A stretch of 64,000 nt of DNA from Actinomycetales bacterium Actino_02 (GTDB taxonomy: Bacteria > Actinomycetota > Actinomycetes > Propionibacteriales > Propionibacteriaceae): positions 1-64,000 of the forward strand of contig LUYM01000011.1 in the NCBI GenBank assembly GCA_001603275.1, given 5' to 3'. Below, in pieces: positions 1 through 31,959 of this stretch; positions within the stretch are counted from its first letter, which is position 1; each line of letters starts with the position of its first letter. A program made the position numbers and the translations under genes. The notes below the pieces were generated by a model. The model was not told where the DNA came from, did not search any database, and worked only from the letters and a program-made list of their open reading frames with translations.

Positions 1-715
1 GCGGCGGGCGGACGCTGGCCTGGGCCAGGACCTGGCGGGGGTCGCCGTGAACCAGGCGGCCGTCGCCGGGCAGCCAGATGATCGAGTCGGCGGCCTGCAT
101 CACTCGCTCGAGCCGATGCTCGGCCAGCACCACGGTAAGGCCAACCTCGTGGACCAGGGTCGAGATGGCCGCGAGGACGTCCTGGGCTGCGGTCGGATCC
201 AGCGCCGAGGTCGGCTCGTCCAAAACCAGCACCCGCGGCTGCGCGGCCAGCACGGCTGCGATGGCGACCCGCTGCTGTTGGCCACCGGACAACTCGATCA
301 GCGGACGCCGCCGCAGATCGGCGATCCCCATCAGGTCGAGGGTCTCCTCGACGCGCTTACGCATCGCCACCGGGTCGATGCCGAGCTGCTCCATGCCATA
401 GGCCACCTCGTCCTCGACGGTGTCGGTGACGAAGCCGCGCAGCGGATCCTGGCCGACGTAACCGACCACATCGGCCAGATCGCGGGGGCGGAAGCTGGCG
501 GTGTTCCGGCCGTCGACCAGCACGCGGCCGCGGAGCAGCCCGCCGGTGAAGTGCGGCACCAAGCCGTTGATCGCACCGAGCAGGGTGGACTTGCCCGAGC
601 CGGTGGTGCCGACCACCAGGCACAGGTCGCCTTCGGGCAGGACGAGATCGACCCGGTCGAGTACCGGGCTGGAGGCTTCGGCATAGGTGACCGACACCTG
701 CTCGAAGCGGATCAC
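1..715 (-). CDS. ECF transporter ATP-binding protein EcfA (3' part outside window)
   Basis: ATP-hydrolysing subunit of an energy-coupling-factor importer, working on the cytoplasmic face with the EcfT scaffold encoded just before it. The frame is open off the left edge, so about 238 residues are visible. Residues 36-44 read GTTGSGKST (Walker A), LSGGQQQR (ABC signature) starts at about 142, LVLDEPTSALDP (Walker B) lies near 160-172, and the AEHR switch histidine is of EcfA type. The GTG start (715-713) overlaps the EcfT stop as GTGA, so the two are translationally coupled. Being downstream of a cobalamin riboswitch, it probably energises corrinoid (less likely cobalt) uptake. No substrate-binding S component is visible; it may lie past the edge, as may a second ATPase or a fused ATPase half. 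Confidence 0.9.
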   Translation of the reverse strand, partial: MIRFEQVSVTYAEASSPVLDRVDLVLPEGDLCLVVGTTGSGKSTLLGAINGLVPHFTGGLLRGRVLVDGRNTASFRPRDLADVVGYVGQDPLRGFVTDTVEDEVAYGMEQLGIDPVAMRKRVEETLDLMGIADLRRRPLIELSGGQQQRVAIAAVLAAQPRVLVLDEPTSALDPTAAQDVLAAISTLVHEVGLTVVLAEHRLERVMQAADSIIWLPGDGRLVHGDPRQVLAQASVRPP

Positions 716-1866
716 TGCCGGACCAACTCCCGATCGACCCGTGGCCGCAGTGAGCGGACCTGGGTGTCGTTGCGCACCGACTCGGTCTGGACGGACGCCC
801 GGGCCCGGCTCAGCGGGATCGGCGCCAAGACCAGGCCGACCACCAGCAGCATCGGCAGGCTCAGCGCCGGCCAGGACAGCGGGTCGGTGGTCGGGAACAG
901 GGCGGACGGATCGAGCAGGCCGGCCAGGGCCGGGCTGAGCGTGTCCGGATTCAGCCAGCCCAAGCTGAGCACGGTCACCGCGGCCAGGGCGCCGCTGCCG
1001 GCGATCAGTGCATCCCGGCCGCGCCAGGGCATCGGCCGGTAGCTGGTCACATGCAGCCGGCGTCCGGCCAGGCGGAGACCGAGGGCTGAGCCGATCAGCC
1101 CGACTACCAGCAGCAGGCAGGCCAGCTGCCAGTAGTCGGTGCTGAGCAGCAGAAAGACCCCGATGGTGGCGGCCATCGAGGAGCTCAACATCAGCGGCAG
1201 AGTGCCCTTGGTGGGCAAGCCGCGGGTACGGGCGAAGCCTCGGGATTCCATGCCGGCTGCCAGTGACATCGATCGGTCGATGGCATCGGCCAGCACCGGC
1301 ATGGCGATCGTCGCCAGCGCCTTGAGGTTGGTCGAGGAGTCGCCGCGCAGTCGCCGGGCCCTGCGGACGCGCTGGACGCTCTCGATCAGCTGTGGAGCCA
1401 CGCTGAGCGCGATCACCACGGCTACGGATGCTTCATACAGGGCGGCGGGCACCGATCGCAGCGCCTGGCGCGGATTGGCCAGGGCGTTGGCCGCCCCGAT
1501 GGCCAGCAGCATCACGGCCAGCCGCAATGCGTCATACAGGGTGCCGGTGAGGGCTTCGGCGGTGACGGTGCCGCCCAGCTGAATGCCCACTGCCCAATCC
1601 GGCAATGGGATCCGAGGCAGTTCGATGATCACCGTCTCGCCGCGTCCGCTGCCCAGCACGATCTGGAAGAGCATCCGCATCCCGATCACGAACGCGCTGA
1701 GCAGCAGGTAGGCCCGGACCGAGCGCGCCCAGGGTGCATCGCTGCGCCGCAACATCACCACGGCAACCATGGCCGTGGCGATCAGGGCAAGCAGCAGCGG
1801 GTTGGTGGTGCCGCTGACGGCGATCCCGATTCCGATCGCCCAACACCACCACGCCCAGGGATGCAC
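712..1866 (-). CDS. ECF transporter transmembrane scaffold EcfT (CbiQ family)
   Basis: Integral-membrane T component coupling ATPases to a substrate-binding S subunit. The 384-residue protein begins with the HPWAWWCWAIG segment typical of actinobacterial EcfT, has about six hydrophobic helices, and carries ESRGFARTR near the middle; an Ala-Arg-Gly-type coupling-helix motif of this kind contacts the ATPases in the family. Its C-terminal half has further membrane spans, making it longer than simple CbiQ. I chose the GTG at 1866 because it follows the upstream stop by 5 nt and AGAGGA lies before it; the longer open frame reads back through the upstream gene. The EcfA gene overlaps its stop. Confidence 0.88.
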   Translation of the reverse strand: MHPWAWWCWAIGIGIAVSGTTNPLLLALIATAMVAVVMLRRSDAPWARSVRAYLLLSAFVIGMRMLFQIVLGSGRGETVIIELPRIPLPDWAVGIQLGGTVTAEALTGTLYDALRLAVMLLAIGAANALANPRQALRSVPAALYEASVAVVIALSVAPQLIESVQRVRRARRLRGDSSTNLKALATIAMPVLADAIDRSMSLAAGMESRGFARTRGLPTKGTLPLMLSSSMAATIGVFLLLSTDYWQLACLLLVVGLIGSALGLRLAGRRLHVTSYRPMPWRGRDALIAGSGALAAVTVLSLGWLNPDTLSPALAGLLDPSALFPTTDPLSWPALSLPMLLVVGLVLAPIPLSRARASVQTESVRNDTQVRSLRPRVDRELVRQ

Positions 1867-1871
1867 TCGGT

Positions 1872-2672
1872 TCAGCGGCGTCGTCCTCTCAGGAGCCACC
1901 AGCCGCCCAGGCCGCCGGCGGCGACCAGGATGGCGACTCCGGCGGCGATGGTGCCGACCGGGGTGCCGGAGGCGGGTGGGGGAGCGATGGCGGACGGCGC
2001 CTCGGCGACTACGGCCGAGACGTCTGTGCTGGGTGCGTCCGCCGTAGCGGAGGTGGCAGTCGCGGTCTGTGCAGGGCTGGGGGTCGGTGTGCTCGCCGCT
2101 GTGGGGGCGCTGCTGCGCGGTGTCGCTGTTGCTGAGGCGGACGTGGTCGCCCGGCTGGTGGCCTTCTTGGTTGGCTGGGTGCTGGCCTTGGTGGGGGTCG
2201 GCGATGGTTCGGCAGCCACCGCGGTTGGTGGGTCGGCCTGGGGTGCGGCCTTGCCTTCGCTCAGTGACTGGTAGCGCCAGCCCTCGGCATTGCCCTGGGC
2301 GGGGTGGTAGTCGTCGGCTCCGAGGTTGGAGTAGTCCCAGGCGGAGTAGCTGCCGTCTGCCTGCCGAGTGGCGTGCCAGTAGGACCAATAGGCCTTATTG
2401 GGGTCGGGGTTGCTCGGCTTTCCGCCGATCTTGGAGATGAAGCCGCCGTCGATCACCACCGAGAACCCGGCGCTGCGCAGCGCCTTCGTGCCGGTGCTGA
2501 AGCTGGTCGCGCACTTGGTGCTGGTACTGCCGAGTGCGCCGTAGTCGACGACCACCCAGACGCCGGTACACGTCACCGCGGCAGGCAGGGGTGCAGCCTG
2601 CGCGGGGACGGCCGCCATCGGGCCGACGGCGATCAGCGCCGCCAGCCCGATGGCGATCAGGTGATGCCTCAC
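1872..2672 (-). CDS. Cell-surface DUF4430 (transcobalamin-like C-terminal) domain protein
   Basis: 266 residues in four parts: a Sec signal peptide (residues 1-26, ending AQA), one DUF4430-type domain (about 33-135, from CTGVWVVVDYG to EGWRYQSL), a long Pro/Thr/Ser/Ala-rich linker (about 140-235), and a C-terminal membrane helix followed by RGRRR. It should sit outside the membrane on a flexible stalk. The domain is plainly homologous to the middle domain of the next upstream protein; DUF4430 resembles the C-terminal lid domain of animal transcobalamin and intrinsic factor. The GTG start overlaps the preceding stop (GTGA). Under the cobalamin riboswitch and before EcfT, it is a good candidate for a corrinoid-handing receptor; the ligand is inferred. 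Confidence 0.8.
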   Translation of the reverse strand: MRHHLIAIGLAALIAVGPMAAVPAQAAPLPAAVTCTGVWVVVDYGALGSTSTKCATSFSTGTKALRSAGFSVVIDGGFISKIGGKPSNPDPNKAYWSYWHATRQADGSYSAWDYSNLGADDYHPAQGNAEGWRYQSLSEGKAAPQADPPTAVAAEPSPTPTKASTQPTKKATSRATTSASATATPRSSAPTAASTPTPSPAQTATATSATADAPSTDVSAVVAEAPSAIAPPPASGTPVGTIAAGVAILVAAGGLGGWWLLRGRRR

Positions 2673-4246
2673 TTAGTGACCTTTGCCGAAGCCAGCGAGG
2701 TCTTGCTGACGGTCTGCAATCCCGCTCCACTGGCCGTGACCTTGACGGTGATCACCTTGTTCAGATCGCTCTTGCTGACCTTGTAGGTGCTCTTGGTGGC
2801 CTTCGAGATGGCCTTCCCGGAGCGGTACCACTGGATGGCCACCTTGTCCGGGGTGGGTGTCCACGTCCCGGGCGTGACCGTCAGCGTCTGGCCGACCTTC
2901 GGGGTGGTGTTGTCGATGGTCGGAGTCGGTGCGTCCGCGTAGCCCCTCGGGGGCTGGATGAACGACGCCGTCTCGGAGTAGCCGCCGTAGTACCAGCCCT
3001 CGACCGAACCCTTGACCGGGTGCGCGTCGGCGGCACCAACCTGGTACGACTCCCAGGCGTTCCAGGTTCCGTCGTCCTTCGGGGCGGCATGCCAGTAGCC
3101 CCAGTACTTCGACCAGCTCGTGTCGATGGTGTACGGGAAGCCCTGCACGCGGTTCACGAAGCCGTCCTTCGCCTCCACGCTGAACCCGGCGCTCTCCAGC
3201 GCCTCCAGACCGGTGGCGTACTTGGTGGCGCAGCGGACGGTCTCCTGGCCGTTGCCGCGGTCGACCACAACCCACACGCCGGTGCAGCTTGCGGTGGCCT
3301 TCGGCAGCGACGGCGGGTTCTTCGGGCACTTGCTGAGGTTCAGTGAGACATCGGACAGCGTCTTGCCGTTGATCAGCCACAGAGCGTCCGCCGTGGCCAT
3401 CAGGTTGCTGGTGCTGCCATCCCGGGTGGAGGCGAAGCCGCCGTCGGCCAGCTGCTTGGTGCCGAGCCAGGCCTTCGCGTCAGCGGACGAGGAGGTCTTG
3501 CCCACCTTGTTCAGCGCAGAGCCGAGCAGGCCGGCCGAGTCCACCGGGGAGTAGTCGTTCGGCCAGGAGCCGTCCTCGAGCTGGGCGCTGAGGGCCCAGT
3601 CGACGGCCAAGTCCAGCTGCGGGGCCAGGTTGCCGACCGCGTCCAGGCCGAGGATGGCCAGTGCCGTGGTGTCCGGGTCGGAGGTGAATCCGCCCATGTC
3701 GTAGCCGAAAGCACCGCTGCTGTCCTGCAGGCTGAGCAGCTTGGTGAGCACGGTGACCGGGGTCGTCGCGTCGGCCCGATCCAGCGCGATCAGGGCCAGG
3801 CTCTGGCTGAAGGCCGAATCGGCCGAGCCGATCCGTCCGTCCTTGGGCAGGCTCTTGGTGACCAGCGAGACCAGGTCGTAGCCGGCGAACTTGCGCGGGT
3901 TCAGGCCCAGCGCCTTCACGGTGATGGCCAGGTTGGCGGCGCGTGCCGGGTTCAGCTTCTTGCTCGGGTAGAGGTACCCCTTGGCGCCCTTCTCCAGTTG
4001 ACTGACCAGGGTGCGCAGCGCGGGCGCATAGGTGCAGTCACCGGACGTGGCCAGCCCCAGCGCCGCGGTGATGGCGGAGCCGACGCTGTCCTTGGGCAGG
4101 TTCTTGACGATGTAGTTGGCGGCCTTGGTGGCGTCGGCGGTGGCGGTCGGCGCGGCCTGCGCAGTCAGTGGGGCGGCGGTGAGGCCGACCAGAGCGACGG
4201 CCACTGCAGACCCGGCAGCCAGCCATCGGCGGAGAGAGTGGAACAC
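2669..4246 (-). CDS. Secreted transcobalamin-like protein: alpha/alpha toroid, DUF4430 and Ig-like domains
   Basis: 525 residues. A signal peptide (1-31, cleavage after AQA) precedes an all-helical repeat region (about 35-315) with prenyltransferase/cyclase-toroid signatures such as QDSSGAFGYD and DPDTTALAILGLDAV. A DUF4430 domain (about 325-430) and a C-terminal Ig-like module (about 440-525, with VGQTLTVTPGTW and IQWYRSGKAI) follow. Helical barrel plus DUF4430 is the arrangement of animal intrinsic factor and transcobalamin, which clamp B12 between the two. Start: GTG at 4246, with GAAAGGAC 4-11 nt before it; upstream in-frame codons lie inside the riboswitch. First gene of the riboswitch-led operon. 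Corrinoid binding is inferred from architecture and regulation. There is no anchor, so it may be released or bound to its anchored neighbour. Confidence 0.82.
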   Translation of the reverse strand: MFHSLRRWLAAGSAVAVALVGLTAAPLTAQAAPTATADATKAANYIVKNLPKDSVGSAITAALGLATSGDCTYAPALRTLVSQLEKGAKGYLYPSKKLNPARAANLAITVKALGLNPRKFAGYDLVSLVTKSLPKDGRIGSADSAFSQSLALIALDRADATTPVTVLTKLLSLQDSSGAFGYDMGGFTSDPDTTALAILGLDAVGNLAPQLDLAVDWALSAQLEDGSWPNDYSPVDSAGLLGSALNKVGKTSSSADAKAWLGTKQLADGGFASTRDGSTSNLMATADALWLINGKTLSDVSLNLSKCPKNPPSLPKATASCTGVWVVVDRGNGQETVRCATKYATGLEALESAGFSVEAKDGFVNRVQGFPYTIDTSWSKYWGYWHAAPKDDGTWNAWESYQVGAADAHPVKGSVEGWYYGGYSETASFIQPPRGYADAPTPTIDNTTPKVGQTLTVTPGTWTPTPDKVAIQWYRSGKAISKATKSTYKVSKSDLNKVITVKVTASGAGLQTVSKTSLASAKVTK

Positions 4247-4250
4247 CTGA

Positions 4251-4281
4251 GAGTCCTTTCGCGCGGGGCAAATGAGGACTC
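4251..4281 (-). promoter_or_regulatory. Shine-Dalgarno-sequestering hairpin of the riboswitch
   Basis: On the minus strand GAGTCCT (4281-4275) is exactly complementary to AGGACTC (4257-4251), which contains the AGGA ribosome-binding site of the gene starting at 4246. This gives a simple expression platform in which ligand binding would hide the site and stop translation. The pairing is seen directly; the switching direction is inferred from cobalamin riboswitches in general. Confidence 0.6.
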
Positions 4282-4344
4282 CGGCCCACGAAAGGCGCGT
4301 CCGGCTCACCCCGCATGCCTCGACGGGTTGATGTTGAGCCAAAA

Positions 4345-4450
4345 CCAGGCGGGCATTCCGACTTGGCCGGTCAAAGCCGGCGTCACGGCTGCGGGTCAGT
4401 CCCGGATTCTCACCGGGTTCCCCCACGTTGGTTCAGGTGGTGAAACCTTA
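4345..4450 (-). promoter_or_regulatory. Cobalamin riboswitch aptamer
   Basis: Read on the minus strand, 4420-4380 carries the B12-box pattern GAACCCGGTGAGAATCCGGG followed by ACTGACCCGCAGCCGTGA. About 15 nt further, 4364-4345 reads AAGTCGGAATGCCCGCCTGG, the usual 3' closing segment. The 5' flank (4450-4421) provides the outer pairing arm. It lies 100 nt before the first gene of the transcobalamin-like/ECF operon, so cobalamin should repress that operon. Confidence 0.92.
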
Positions 4451-4480
4451 GCCCAGATCTGTCCCGGTGCCGAGTGAGGC

Positions 4481-4513
4481 AGACAAAACGGGCACCGGCG
4501 AACCGGTGCCCGT
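4481..4513 (-). terminator. Intrinsic terminator after the small helical protein gene
   Basis: An 11-bp perfect stem (4488-4498 with 4503-4513) is closed on the minus strand by a UUCG tetraloop and followed by TTTTG. It lies 20 nt past the stop at 4533 and insulates the riboswitch operon from read-through. Confidence 0.8.
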
Positions 4514-4532
4514 CTCAGGTGGTGAGGGTGGG

Positions 4533-4835
4533 TTAGGACTGCGGTTTGTCCTCGCCATCGATCAGTCCCTTGATGGCGTTGGTGGCCTCATCGGCCGCCT
4601 TCTTGGCATTCTCGGGGAAGTCCGCGGCGAAGTCCTTGACTGCCGTGCTGGCGTCGTCTGCGAACTTCTTCGCATTCTCCGGGAGGTCTCCGGCCAGGTC
4701 CTTGGCCTTATCGACTGCCTCACCGGTGAATTCCTTGGCCTTGTCGAAGGCGTCTTCGGCGAAGTCGCCGGCCTTCCCGCCGAACTCCTTGGCCTTGTTG
4801 ATCAGGCCTCCCAGGAAGCCTTCGGTGTCACTCAT
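4533..4835 (-). CDS. Small amphipathic-helix repeat protein
   Basis: 100 residues with no signal peptide or membrane span, very rich in Lys, Ala, Asp and Phe. From residue 12 to 90 it is a run of degenerate 11-residue units (KAKEFGGKAGD, KAKEFTGEAVD, KAKDLAGDLPE, two related ENAKK units) that would form a long amphipathic helix, as in LEA-like or apolipoprotein-like proteins. GAGGTG precedes the ATG at 4835. It stands alone with its own terminator. Function unknown; membrane-surface or stress-protective binding would fit the composition but is a guess. Confidence 0.7.
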   Translation of the reverse strand: MSDTEGFLGGLINKAKEFGGKAGDFAEDAFDKAKEFTGEAVDKAKDLAGDLPENAKKFADDASTAVKDFAADFPENAKKAADEATNAIKGLIDGEDKPQS

Positions 4836-4875
4836 GCCGCACCTCAATTCGTGATGTGGAGAATCTAGCCCAATT

Positions 4876-5472
4876 CTAGGCGGTGCGGCGAACCTCCAGA
4901 AGACGGAAGCCCTTCGCACTGCCGATCCGTTGGCAGCGGAAGCCGGACTCAATCAGCCAGGTGTGCAGCGAATCGGCGCCGAGGTTGCGTCCGACCACCA
5001 GGACGGCGCGTCCGTTTGGGGTCAGCCGGGGCAGCCAGGTGAGGAGCAGCTCGTGCAGGGCCTGCTTGCCGATCCGGATCGGCGGGTTCGACCAGATCTC
5101 GTCGTAGCGGACGTCCGGATCGACCTGCTCGGGCAGCAGCGGATGCACCCGGTCGGCGACCTCATGCAGCTTCGCATTGGTTGCGGTCAGGGCGAGGGCG
5201 CGTTCGTTGACGTCCACCGCGTCCACCTCAACCCTGGGGACGGCGCTGGCCAGGGCGATCGCCAAGACGCCGTAGCCGCAGCCGAGATCCAGGGCGCGGG
5301 TGGCATTGCCGGGCGGAATCACCTCGCGCAGCAGAACGGCGGTGCCCTGGTCGAGGCCGTCGTAGGAGAAGACGCCGTCGGCTGTGGTGAACTCCCAGTC
5401 GGTGTCCCAGAAGTGGGCCGTGATCTGGCGGCGGTGCTCCGGCGTGGTCGGAGTCTGGAAGTAGTGGCTCAT
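4876..5472 (-). CDS. Class I SAM methyltransferase, RsmC/RlmG-like (MTS domain)
   Basis: 198 residues forming one methyltransferase domain. LDLGCGYGVLAIAL (about 62-75) is the SAM-binding motif I; DAVDVNERALALT follows; WSNPPIRIGK (about 129-138) is the NPP active-site motif of N2-guanine rRNA methyltransferases such as RsmC. Length matches the single-domain actinobacterial members rather than the two-domain E. coli RsmC. It is the third gene of trmB-truA-this gene, with ATGA overlap to truA, so an RNA substrate is likely; the modified base cannot be fixed from sequence. Confidence 0.82.
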   Translation of the reverse strand: MSHYFQTPTTPEHRRQITAHFWDTDWEFTTADGVFSYDGLDQGTAVLLREVIPPGNATRALDLGCGYGVLAIALASAVPRVEVDAVDVNERALALTATNAKLHEVADRVHPLLPEQVDPDVRYDEIWSNPPIRIGKQALHELLLTWLPRLTPNGRAVLVVGRNLGADSLHTWLIESGFRCQRIGSAKGFRLLEVRRTA

Positions 5473-6281: not shown

Positions 6282-6982
6282 CGTCGGTAGCTCAGGTCGA
6301 AGATCTCGCGGCCGGCCGTGCGTCCGCGCTGCTCGTACTTGGTGACTGGACGCAGCTCCCAGCGCGGCGCCCAGCCGTCGTGCTCGTTGACCAGGCTCGG
6401 CTCGGCGTCCAGCACTTCGCGCATGGCCTCGGCGTAGTCGGCCCAGTCGGTGGCCAGCCGCCAACGCCCGCCGGGGACCAGCCGCGAGCCGACGATTGCG
6501 GCGAACTCCGGGCTGACCAGGCGCCGCTTGTGGTGGCGGGCCTTGTGCCATGGGTCGGGAAAGAACGTCCACAGCTCGCTGATCGAGGCCGGTTCAAAGA
6601 CGGCGGTCAGGGCTTGGGCGCCGTCGGCGATCACCAACCGGACGTTGCCGACGCCGTGCCGGGCCAGTCGGCCCAGGGTGGACGCCACGGCGGGGGTGTA
6701 CACCTCGAAGGCGATTACGTTGGCCTGGGGGTGCGCCTCGGCCAGAGCGGTGACCGCGTGGCCGGTGCCCGAGCCGATCTCGACCAACAGTGGCGCTTCG
6801 CGTCCGAAGACGCCGGACCAGTCGATCTGCGCATCAGTGGCGATCGAGGTGACCCGCTCGCCGGCCGGCAGTTCGACAACCCAGTCGTCGTGGTAGAGGT
6901 CCCAGGCGCGCTGCTGGGCGGCGTTCATCCGTCCGCTGCGCCGGACGTAGCTGACCACGTCACGGTGGATGCGTTCGGACAT
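6278..6982 (-). CDS. trmB: tRNA (guanine-N7-)-methyltransferase TrmB
   Basis: 234 residues. Methylates N7 of G46 in the tRNA variable loop. VEIGSGTGHAVTALA is the SAM-binding motif, followed by FEVYTPAVAS, the FFPDPWHKARHHKRRL segment characteristic of TrmB, and the C-terminal TKYEQRG. Two in-frame ATGs exist (6991 and 6982). I chose 6982: TAGAAT ends exactly 7 nt before it, neither ATG has a Shine-Dalgarno sequence, and the mRNA then starts at the start codon. First gene of the trmB-truA-methyltransferase operon, divergent from the GntR operon. Confidence 0.95.
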   Translation of the reverse strand: MSERIHRDVVSYVRRSGRMNAAQQRAWDLYHDDWVVELPAGERVTSIATDAQIDWSGVFGREAPLLVEIGSGTGHAVTALAEAHPQANVIAFEVYTPAVASTLGRLARHGVGNVRLVIADGAQALTAVFEPASISELWTFFPDPWHKARHHKRRLVSPEFAAIVGSRLVPGGRWRLATDWADYAEAMREVLDAEPSLVNEHDGWAPRWELRPVTKYEQRGRTAGREIFDLSYRR

Positions 6983-31888: not shown

Positions 31889-31901
31889 GCCAAATGATCC
31901 T

Positions 31902-31959
31902 TTCCACGGGCAGGTACGTGCCCGACGATCCGTAGTGGAATATGGCCGCTCCAGCGGCC
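31902..31959 (-). promoter_or_regulatory. Two-hairpin leader of msiK
   Basis: On the minus strand GGCCGC-TGGA-GCGGCC (31959-31944) is followed by TTCCAC pairing with GTGGAA (31940-31935 with 31907-31902), which encloses CGGGCA/TGCCCG (31924-31907). The ribosome-binding site follows directly. A conserved msiK RNA motif is known upstream of msiK genes in Actinobacteria; this may be an example, but I could not compare it with the published consensus. Confidence 0.5.

Follow-up and report, generated by a model that had tools for sequence, protein, structure and literature searches.

A riboswitch-led actinobacterial operon with transcobalamin-like surface proteins and an ECF transporter, a probable system for corrinoid capture and import

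What is taken up by an operon that begins with a cobalamin riboswitch, encodes two putatively secreted proteins and part of an energy-coupling factor (ECF) transporter, and is then cut off by the end of a contig? The question is raised by the window analyzed here, i.e., bases 1-64000 of contig C11 (LUYM01000011.1) of Actinomycetales bacterium Actino_02 (Propionibacteriaceae), whose genome comprises 3.05 Mb in 31 contigs; base 1 is a contig end. We consider that the operon serves riboswitch-repressed capture and ECF import of a corrinoid, i.e., a compound of the vitamin B12 type, and put the probability of this reading at roughly 0.8. The evidence is computational. It comprises the riboswitch, the order of the genes, the continuation of the operon on another contig (C15), the transcobalamin-like predicted folds of the two surface proteins, and conservation among relatives.

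The riboswitch and the operon behind it

Away from the riboswitch, the minus strand encodes P1, P2, EcfT and EcfA in this order and with short overlaps (span 1-4471). The features are as follows:

4331-4471, minus strand: cobalamin riboswitch aptamer (RF00174, 54.3 bits)
4251-4281, minus strand: candidate hairpin covering the Shine-Dalgarno (SD) sequence (leader reading and a stem/shuffle script)
2669-4246, minus strand: P1, 525 residues (open reading frame and structure model; signal peptide by reading)
1872-2672, minus strand: P2, 266 residues (open reading frame and structure model; signal peptide by reading)
712 to about 1899, minus strand: EcfT, membrane subunit of the CbiQ family (PF02361; start inferred by reading)
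2-715, open at base 1, minus strand: EcfA, first half of a fused A1A2 ATPase (TIGR04520)

The aptamer that an earlier, sequence-only reading of the window had placed before the operon lies 5' of P1 on the same strand and scores well above the gathering score of its family (54.3 against 31.5 bits; E 1e-10). Riboswitches of this class repress when B12 is plentiful. Elsewhere in the genome RF00174 has two further matches, both on contig C5 within a B12-synthesis and cobalt-transport cluster. The P1/P2 junction is a shared GTGA, and EcfT overlaps P2 by about 28 bases if its start was read correctly. The overlapping transporter genes were likewise recovered: EcfT matches the CbiQ family (PF02361) at 39.1 bits (cut-off 25), and EcfA matches the ECF ATPase model TIGR04520 at 188.8 bits, below that model's cut-off of 315.

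A hairpin at 4251-4281 (GAGTCCT/AGGACTC) would cover the SD sequence AAGGA (4258-4254) ahead of the GTG start at 4246, and is a possible translational expression platform in the window and in the homologous locus L036. In the window leader, the best SD-covering stem returned by our script was a different one, CCTTTCGTG/CGCGAAAGG, which was equalled by 9 of 500 shuffles. A hairpin of the 4251-4281 type is the best stem in L036, where no shuffle out of 500 was as good; the remaining 11 of the tested leaders have it in a weaker form or lack it. An SD-covering hairpin was also tried as a conserved platform over all 13 leaders and rejected. Besides the two leaders just described, shuffles as good numbered 28 of 500 in L066, 31 of 500 in L052 and at least 78 in five leaders, and four leaders gave no stem. 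Such a hairpin is not a general regulatory device across the relatives. A scan of 4240-4900 found no sigma-70-type promoter.

The window contains no S component, the substrate-binding part expected of an ECF transporter being possibly beyond position 1 according to the sequence-only reading. Its absence is an assembly break. Contig C15 of this genome starts with 106 bases that also form, without a mismatch, the end of the minus strand of the window, and it carries the second ATPase half (G000:C15:1-975, 87% identity) and an ECF S component (G000:C15:975-1751, 88% identity). The exact overlap, together with the S component on C15, shows that the gap in the window is the contig end. Taken together, window and C15 provide an operon that encodes EcfT, a pair of EcfA domains and an S component, i.e., a group I-type arrangement, and in relatives such as L036 and L034 the ECF operon is continuous. 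Among 20 related stretches, an ATPase homologue was present in 17 and a called EcfT in 16, in the same region. Complete copies of this ATPase are mostly single A1A2 fusions of some 530 residues, and the gene that follows the ATPase in L036, L034 and L048 encodes an ECF S component, with PF12822 above its cut-off in all three.

An EcfT of the CbiQ family might also belong to a cobalt importer like CbiMNQO, in which case the surface proteins would serve something else. Cobalt importers often stand under cobalamin riboswitches, and this genome does have a riboswitch before CbiM. That CbiM, however, lies in the B12 cluster and is the genome's own, the three relatives whose S component was tested have the PF12822 type and not CbiM, and the S component persists in relatives that have no CbiC match, all of which makes a cobalt importer very improbable. 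For corrinoid import there is a precedent: B12 uptake by an ECF transporter has been proven for ECF-CbrT of Lactobacillus delbrueckii, for which a crystal structure is reported (PMC5997447). ECF-CbrT likewise joins an ECF module to a B12-specific S component. It differs in using a shared group II module, and the available parts of that paper describe no surface capture protein (PMC5997447); the S components of the window's family, for their part, have no PDB sequence match.

Surface proteins with transcobalamin-like predicted folds

P1 consists of a signal peptide (by reading), an alpha/alpha toroid (helices at about 39-292), a transcobalamin-type beta domain (about 324-421) and a C-terminal immunoglobulin (Ig)-like domain (about 454-516); neither a membrane helix at its C-terminus nor a sortase motif was found. 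An AlphaFold2 model built without ligand from a 24-row alignment (predicted local distance difference test score, pLDDT, 91.5; predicted template modelling score, pTM, 0.82) places the helical toroid first, followed by a beta-grasp-like domain, in which the helix is succeeded by two short strands, and then the Ig-like domain. As modelled, P1 shows both marks of the transcobalamin type, an alpha/alpha toroid and a beta-grasp domain whose helix is followed by a hairpin insert. Comparison with transcobalamin structures had been set beforehand as the main test of the sequence-only reading, and its outcome favours that reading. With 350,542 PDB chains as the Foldseek target, ranks 1-12 for P1 were all transcobalamin (best 8ixu, E 1.0e-12) and rank 13 was haptocorrin (E 7.1e-9), the next match being a squalene-hopene cyclase (E 3.3e-6).

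P2 combines a signal peptide (by reading) with a transcobalamin-type beta domain (about 38-136), a stalk rich in Pro, Thr, Ser and Ala, and a C-terminal helix (248-262). Its model is good in the beta domain only (residues 41-140, block means 92-98; overall 69.6). Transcobalamin again occupied the first ranks (1-13), followed by haptocorrin at rank 14 and Ruminococcus RUMGNA_00854 at ranks 15-16, and the comparison with the isolated transcobalamin beta domain 5np4 gave a fair TMt of 0.64. The assignment of P2 to the transcobalamin type would accordingly concern the beta domain alone, at weaker E-values than those of P1. The two-domain plan that the sequence-only reading gave P1 thus stands as regards the toroid and the beta domain, as do the beta domain and stalk of P2. 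The Pfam profile does not bear out the DUF4430 label, and the Ig-like domain of P1 had been overlooked.

The toroid and beta domain might bind another ligand or a surface polymer, with the riboswitch merely reporting B12 status. The sequence kin of the toroid are squalene-hopene cyclases, and the lower Foldseek ranks of P1 include GH76 mannanases and complement proteins. We nevertheless think this unlikely, since the best transcobalamin match of P1 has an E-value some six orders of magnitude lower than that of the best cyclase, P2 has transcobalamin at rank 1 without possessing a toroid, and the riboswitch accompanies the operon in 18 of 20 genomes surveyed across the class (see below).

How, then, might a corrinoid be captured and imported? 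At low cellular B12 the leader riboswitch would permit expression of the operon. P1, secreted to the cell surface, would clamp the corrinoid between its toroid and its beta domain, closing in the manner of transcobalamin, and P2, whose beta domain would be held near the membrane by the stalk, would take over the ligand or help to position it. EcfT, the fused EcfA1A2 and the S component encoded on C15 would then carry it inward with ATP. The order of capture, hand-over and import is suggested by the folds, the anchors and the order of the genes.

If the P1 model is correct, the protein resembles animal transcobalamin, haptocorrin and intrinsic factor in being secreted and in its domain order, with the toroid at the N-terminus and next to it a beta-grasp domain whose helix precedes a hairpin. 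The window proteins nevertheless show only 15-18% identity to the animal carriers in the Foldseek alignments and include the extra Ig-like domain, and their operon adds a stalked paralogous beta domain and an ECF transporter. The Ig-like module of P1 (residues about 430-525) also recurs in many, often very long, frames across the genus, and may be a surface-binding module.

Much of this scheme has a forerunner, and the novelty implied by the sequence-only reading was too high. Burroughs, Balaji, Iyer and Aravind (2007; PMC1796856) described bacterial fusions of a toroid with a transcobalamin-type domain and a second, paralogous surface protein, together with Ig-fold fusions, wall anchors and operons with CbiO and CbiQ. 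They proposed B12 scavenging and suggested transfer to animals (PMC1796856). The SLBB systems of that study share with the window the toroid and transcobalamin-type domain, the paralogous extracellular protein, the Ig-fold, and CbiO with CbiQ (PMC1796856). Their clade was found in low-GC Gram-positives, planctomycetes and, less often, euryarchaea (PMC1796856). The core scheme, i.e., toroid carrier, paralogue, CbiO/CbiQ and B12 scavenging, was therefore already predicted in 2007 for other bacteria. A word search of the main text of PMC1796856 returned no riboswitch, ECF, split, Streptomyces or Propionibacter, and actinobacteria are named there only for ComEA. What is new here is an actinobacterial family missed by the Pfam profile, its conserved riboswitch, the complete operon past the contig break, and the split arrangement described below. 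In the parts of the literature available to us, our search found no experiment on a bacterial transcobalamin-like protein.

Conservation, and carriers on one or two proteins

Matches to P1 at E <= 1e-3 occurred in 97 of 146 relatives, many of the listed matches covering the Ig-like module only. A named scan gave 16 loci, whose records carry the names Propionicimonas, Micropruina or Propionibacteriaceae or are those of unclassified actinobacteria; these loci partly repeat the same genomes and were not counted again. A cobalamin or AdoCbl-II riboswitch reached its gathering score in 17 of 20 nearer related loci, an association that is more than chance. Read against the gene calls, each of the 17 lies upstream of a toroid gene on the same strand; in L047 the riboswitch overlaps the called toroid start, which may be called too early. 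In Micropruina glycogenica (L035, the same as L064), RF00174 and AdoCbl-II (RF01689) matches stand in a row at 5181-5312 and 6526-6619, each preceding a toroid gene of its own.

At the level of the class, two families that NCBIfam names without a function, SCO2321 and SCO2322, provide the connection. Among the 24 rows of the P1 alignment, 15 match SCO2321 and 13 match SCO2322 (E <= 0.01), and the class-level loci found with SCO2321 show a gene order like that of the window. The window's own proteins, by contrast, fall far below the curated cut-offs (43 vs 300 bits for SCO2321, 18 vs 85 bits for SCO2322). A literature search for SCO2321-SCO2325 found a single paper, which carries the title of a skin-delivery peptide study. 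SCO2321 is matched at E <= 1e-3 by 142 of 296 genomes, 26 of them above its cut-off. Twenty of the 142 were chosen for strong matches and spread over families, and the results below describe such strong matches.

An RF00174 match lies on the same strand, 60-557 bases upstream of the toroid match, in 18/20 genomes (76 first-look candidates scored per genome); it exceeds the gathering score in 10 of these 18 and is the only match reported genome-wide in 13. By six-frame search, a frame with the beta domain follows the toroid frame on an adjacent, separate protein in 20/20 loci. A first profile matched 17 frames, and a second-round profile that included those 17 matched all 20 loci. EcfT was found in 17/20 loci by six-frame search and the S component in 15/20 among called genes. 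Of 19 toroid proteins called in these loci, eight have an LPxTG-like sortase motif near the C-terminus.

Unlike the animal carriers, the 20 class-level loci thus keep the two domains on two proteins, whereas P1 of the window is a fused carrier. Among the toroid proteins compared, the toroid-beta-Ig type occurs only in the window's genus, Micropruina and relatives. Both toroid-beta and beta-toroid orders are present in the window's family, whose other called toroid proteins lack a beta domain, as do those called at class level. The architectures cluster on a toroid tree of 43 rows, where they need four changes, compared with a shuffled mean of 16.1. The tree is rooted at its midpoint only, and does not yield which state, fused or separate, is the older. 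The odds seem to us evenly balanced that the class possesses a split transcobalamin, in which toroid and beta domain, as neighbouring surface proteins, close on a corrinoid and feed a dedicated ECF transporter, the fused P1-type proteins being rearrangements. The ligand would then act as glue between the toroid and beta proteins, which often have sortase motifs or membrane helices. If so, it would rank among the main routes of B12 import in many actinobacteria and would supply SCO2321 and SCO2322 with a function.

B12 status of the host and weight of the evidence

The large B12-synthesis cluster of C5, in the stretch L060 (C5, 14001-34000), has two riboswitches and encodes precorrin methyltransferases, CbiC, CobBC, an adenosyltransferase and cobyric acid synthase, besides a CbiM of its own. 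Because of this cluster the strain probably makes B12, and it probably imports corrinoids as well. Within the genus, a CbiC match was found in 5 of 30 genomes, and the S component in 23 of 30 at E < 1e-100 and in 28 of 30 at E < 1e-40; four of these 28, with matches at 1e-73 to 1e-77, could have a paralogue instead. Eighteen of the 23 genomes with the S component (E < 1e-100) have no CbiC match; if only the 13 genomes of this set with a completeness of at least 90% are counted, nine have none. Such genomes would need corrinoid uptake.

More narrowly, the operon might serve salvage, its substrate being a corrinoid precursor or an incomplete corrinoid (cobinamide, cobyrinate a,c-diamide) and not finished B12. 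This is a special form of corrinoid import, whose odds overlap with those of the general reading, and we regard it as possible but doubtful. The riboswitch would fit any corrinoid-supply gene, and the genome has the adenosyltransferase and cobyric acid synthase. ECF-CbrT also takes cobinamide (PMC5997447), and a review lists cbrUVT as a corrinoid ECF system under 'cobyrinate diamide uptake' (PMC8123684). In transcobalamin, however, the cobalamin base has a beta-hairpin insert stacked on it (PMC1796856), and the P1 and P2 models show strands at that place.

Several results weigh against corrinoid capture and import in general. The host genome itself has corrin-synthesis genes, whereas the bearers described by Burroughs et al. 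are usually without B12 synthesis genes (PMC1796856). The Pfam DUF4430 profile (PF14478) matches nothing in the whole genome at E <= 1e-3; it finds no match in P1 or P2 even at E <= 1, and is not among the families matched at E <= 1 by 20 members of the P2-type alignment. A DUF4430 match as proof of kinship was accordingly abandoned, and the likeness of P1 and P2 to DUF4430 is structural, i.e., based on the models, and not profile-based. A PDB sequence search with P1 gave cyclase toroids and no transcobalamin, and one with P2 gave three weak unrelated matches and no transcobalamin. P1 superposes on the transcobalamin chains with a root-mean-square deviation of 16.2-17.0 A (TM 0.34-0.38 by query length), which means that the placing of the domains in the ligand-free model differs from that in the closed carrier. 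The Foldseek E-values of P2 are weak (best 1.8e-3, none passing 1e-3). A PDB sequence search with the S-component profile A4 returned nothing up to E 10, and 10 of 11 S-component members match the FolT (folate) family weakly, so that the vitamin class is undecided by sequence. S components diverge widely, and a missing sequence match is compatible with kinship to CbrT. Finally, eight of the 18 upstream RF00174 matches at class level are below the gathering score, two of the 20 class-level genomes (G163, G361) show RF00174 matches only elsewhere and not at the operon, and three of the 20 nearer loci (L034, L045, L049) have no riboswitch at gathering score.

Should corrinoid capture and import nevertheless be correct, an operon left functionless by automatic annotation would be a B12 importer of many actinobacteria. 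The two-domain carrier of animals would have a bacterial counterpart working with a pump of the ATP-binding cassette type, often as two separate proteins. This would open the questions of how a large ligand is handed from clamp to S component and where the animal carrier originated.

Some neighbouring features were also recorded. On C15 (L059), genes at 1784-2428 and 2508-3623 follow the S component and occupy the positions that superoxide dismutase and G5/transglycosylase genes have in L036; they were identified by position and size, Pfam having been run on L036 alone. Just upstream of the window's riboswitch, 4533-4835 on the minus strand encodes a small repetitive protein rich in AKEF- and DKAKDLAG-like repeats, and several relatives have genes of similar size at the equivalent position, the likeness being one of size and place. 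Further along the window, an msiK RNA (RF01747) lies at 31892-31950 on the minus strand (59.2 bits; gathering score 33).

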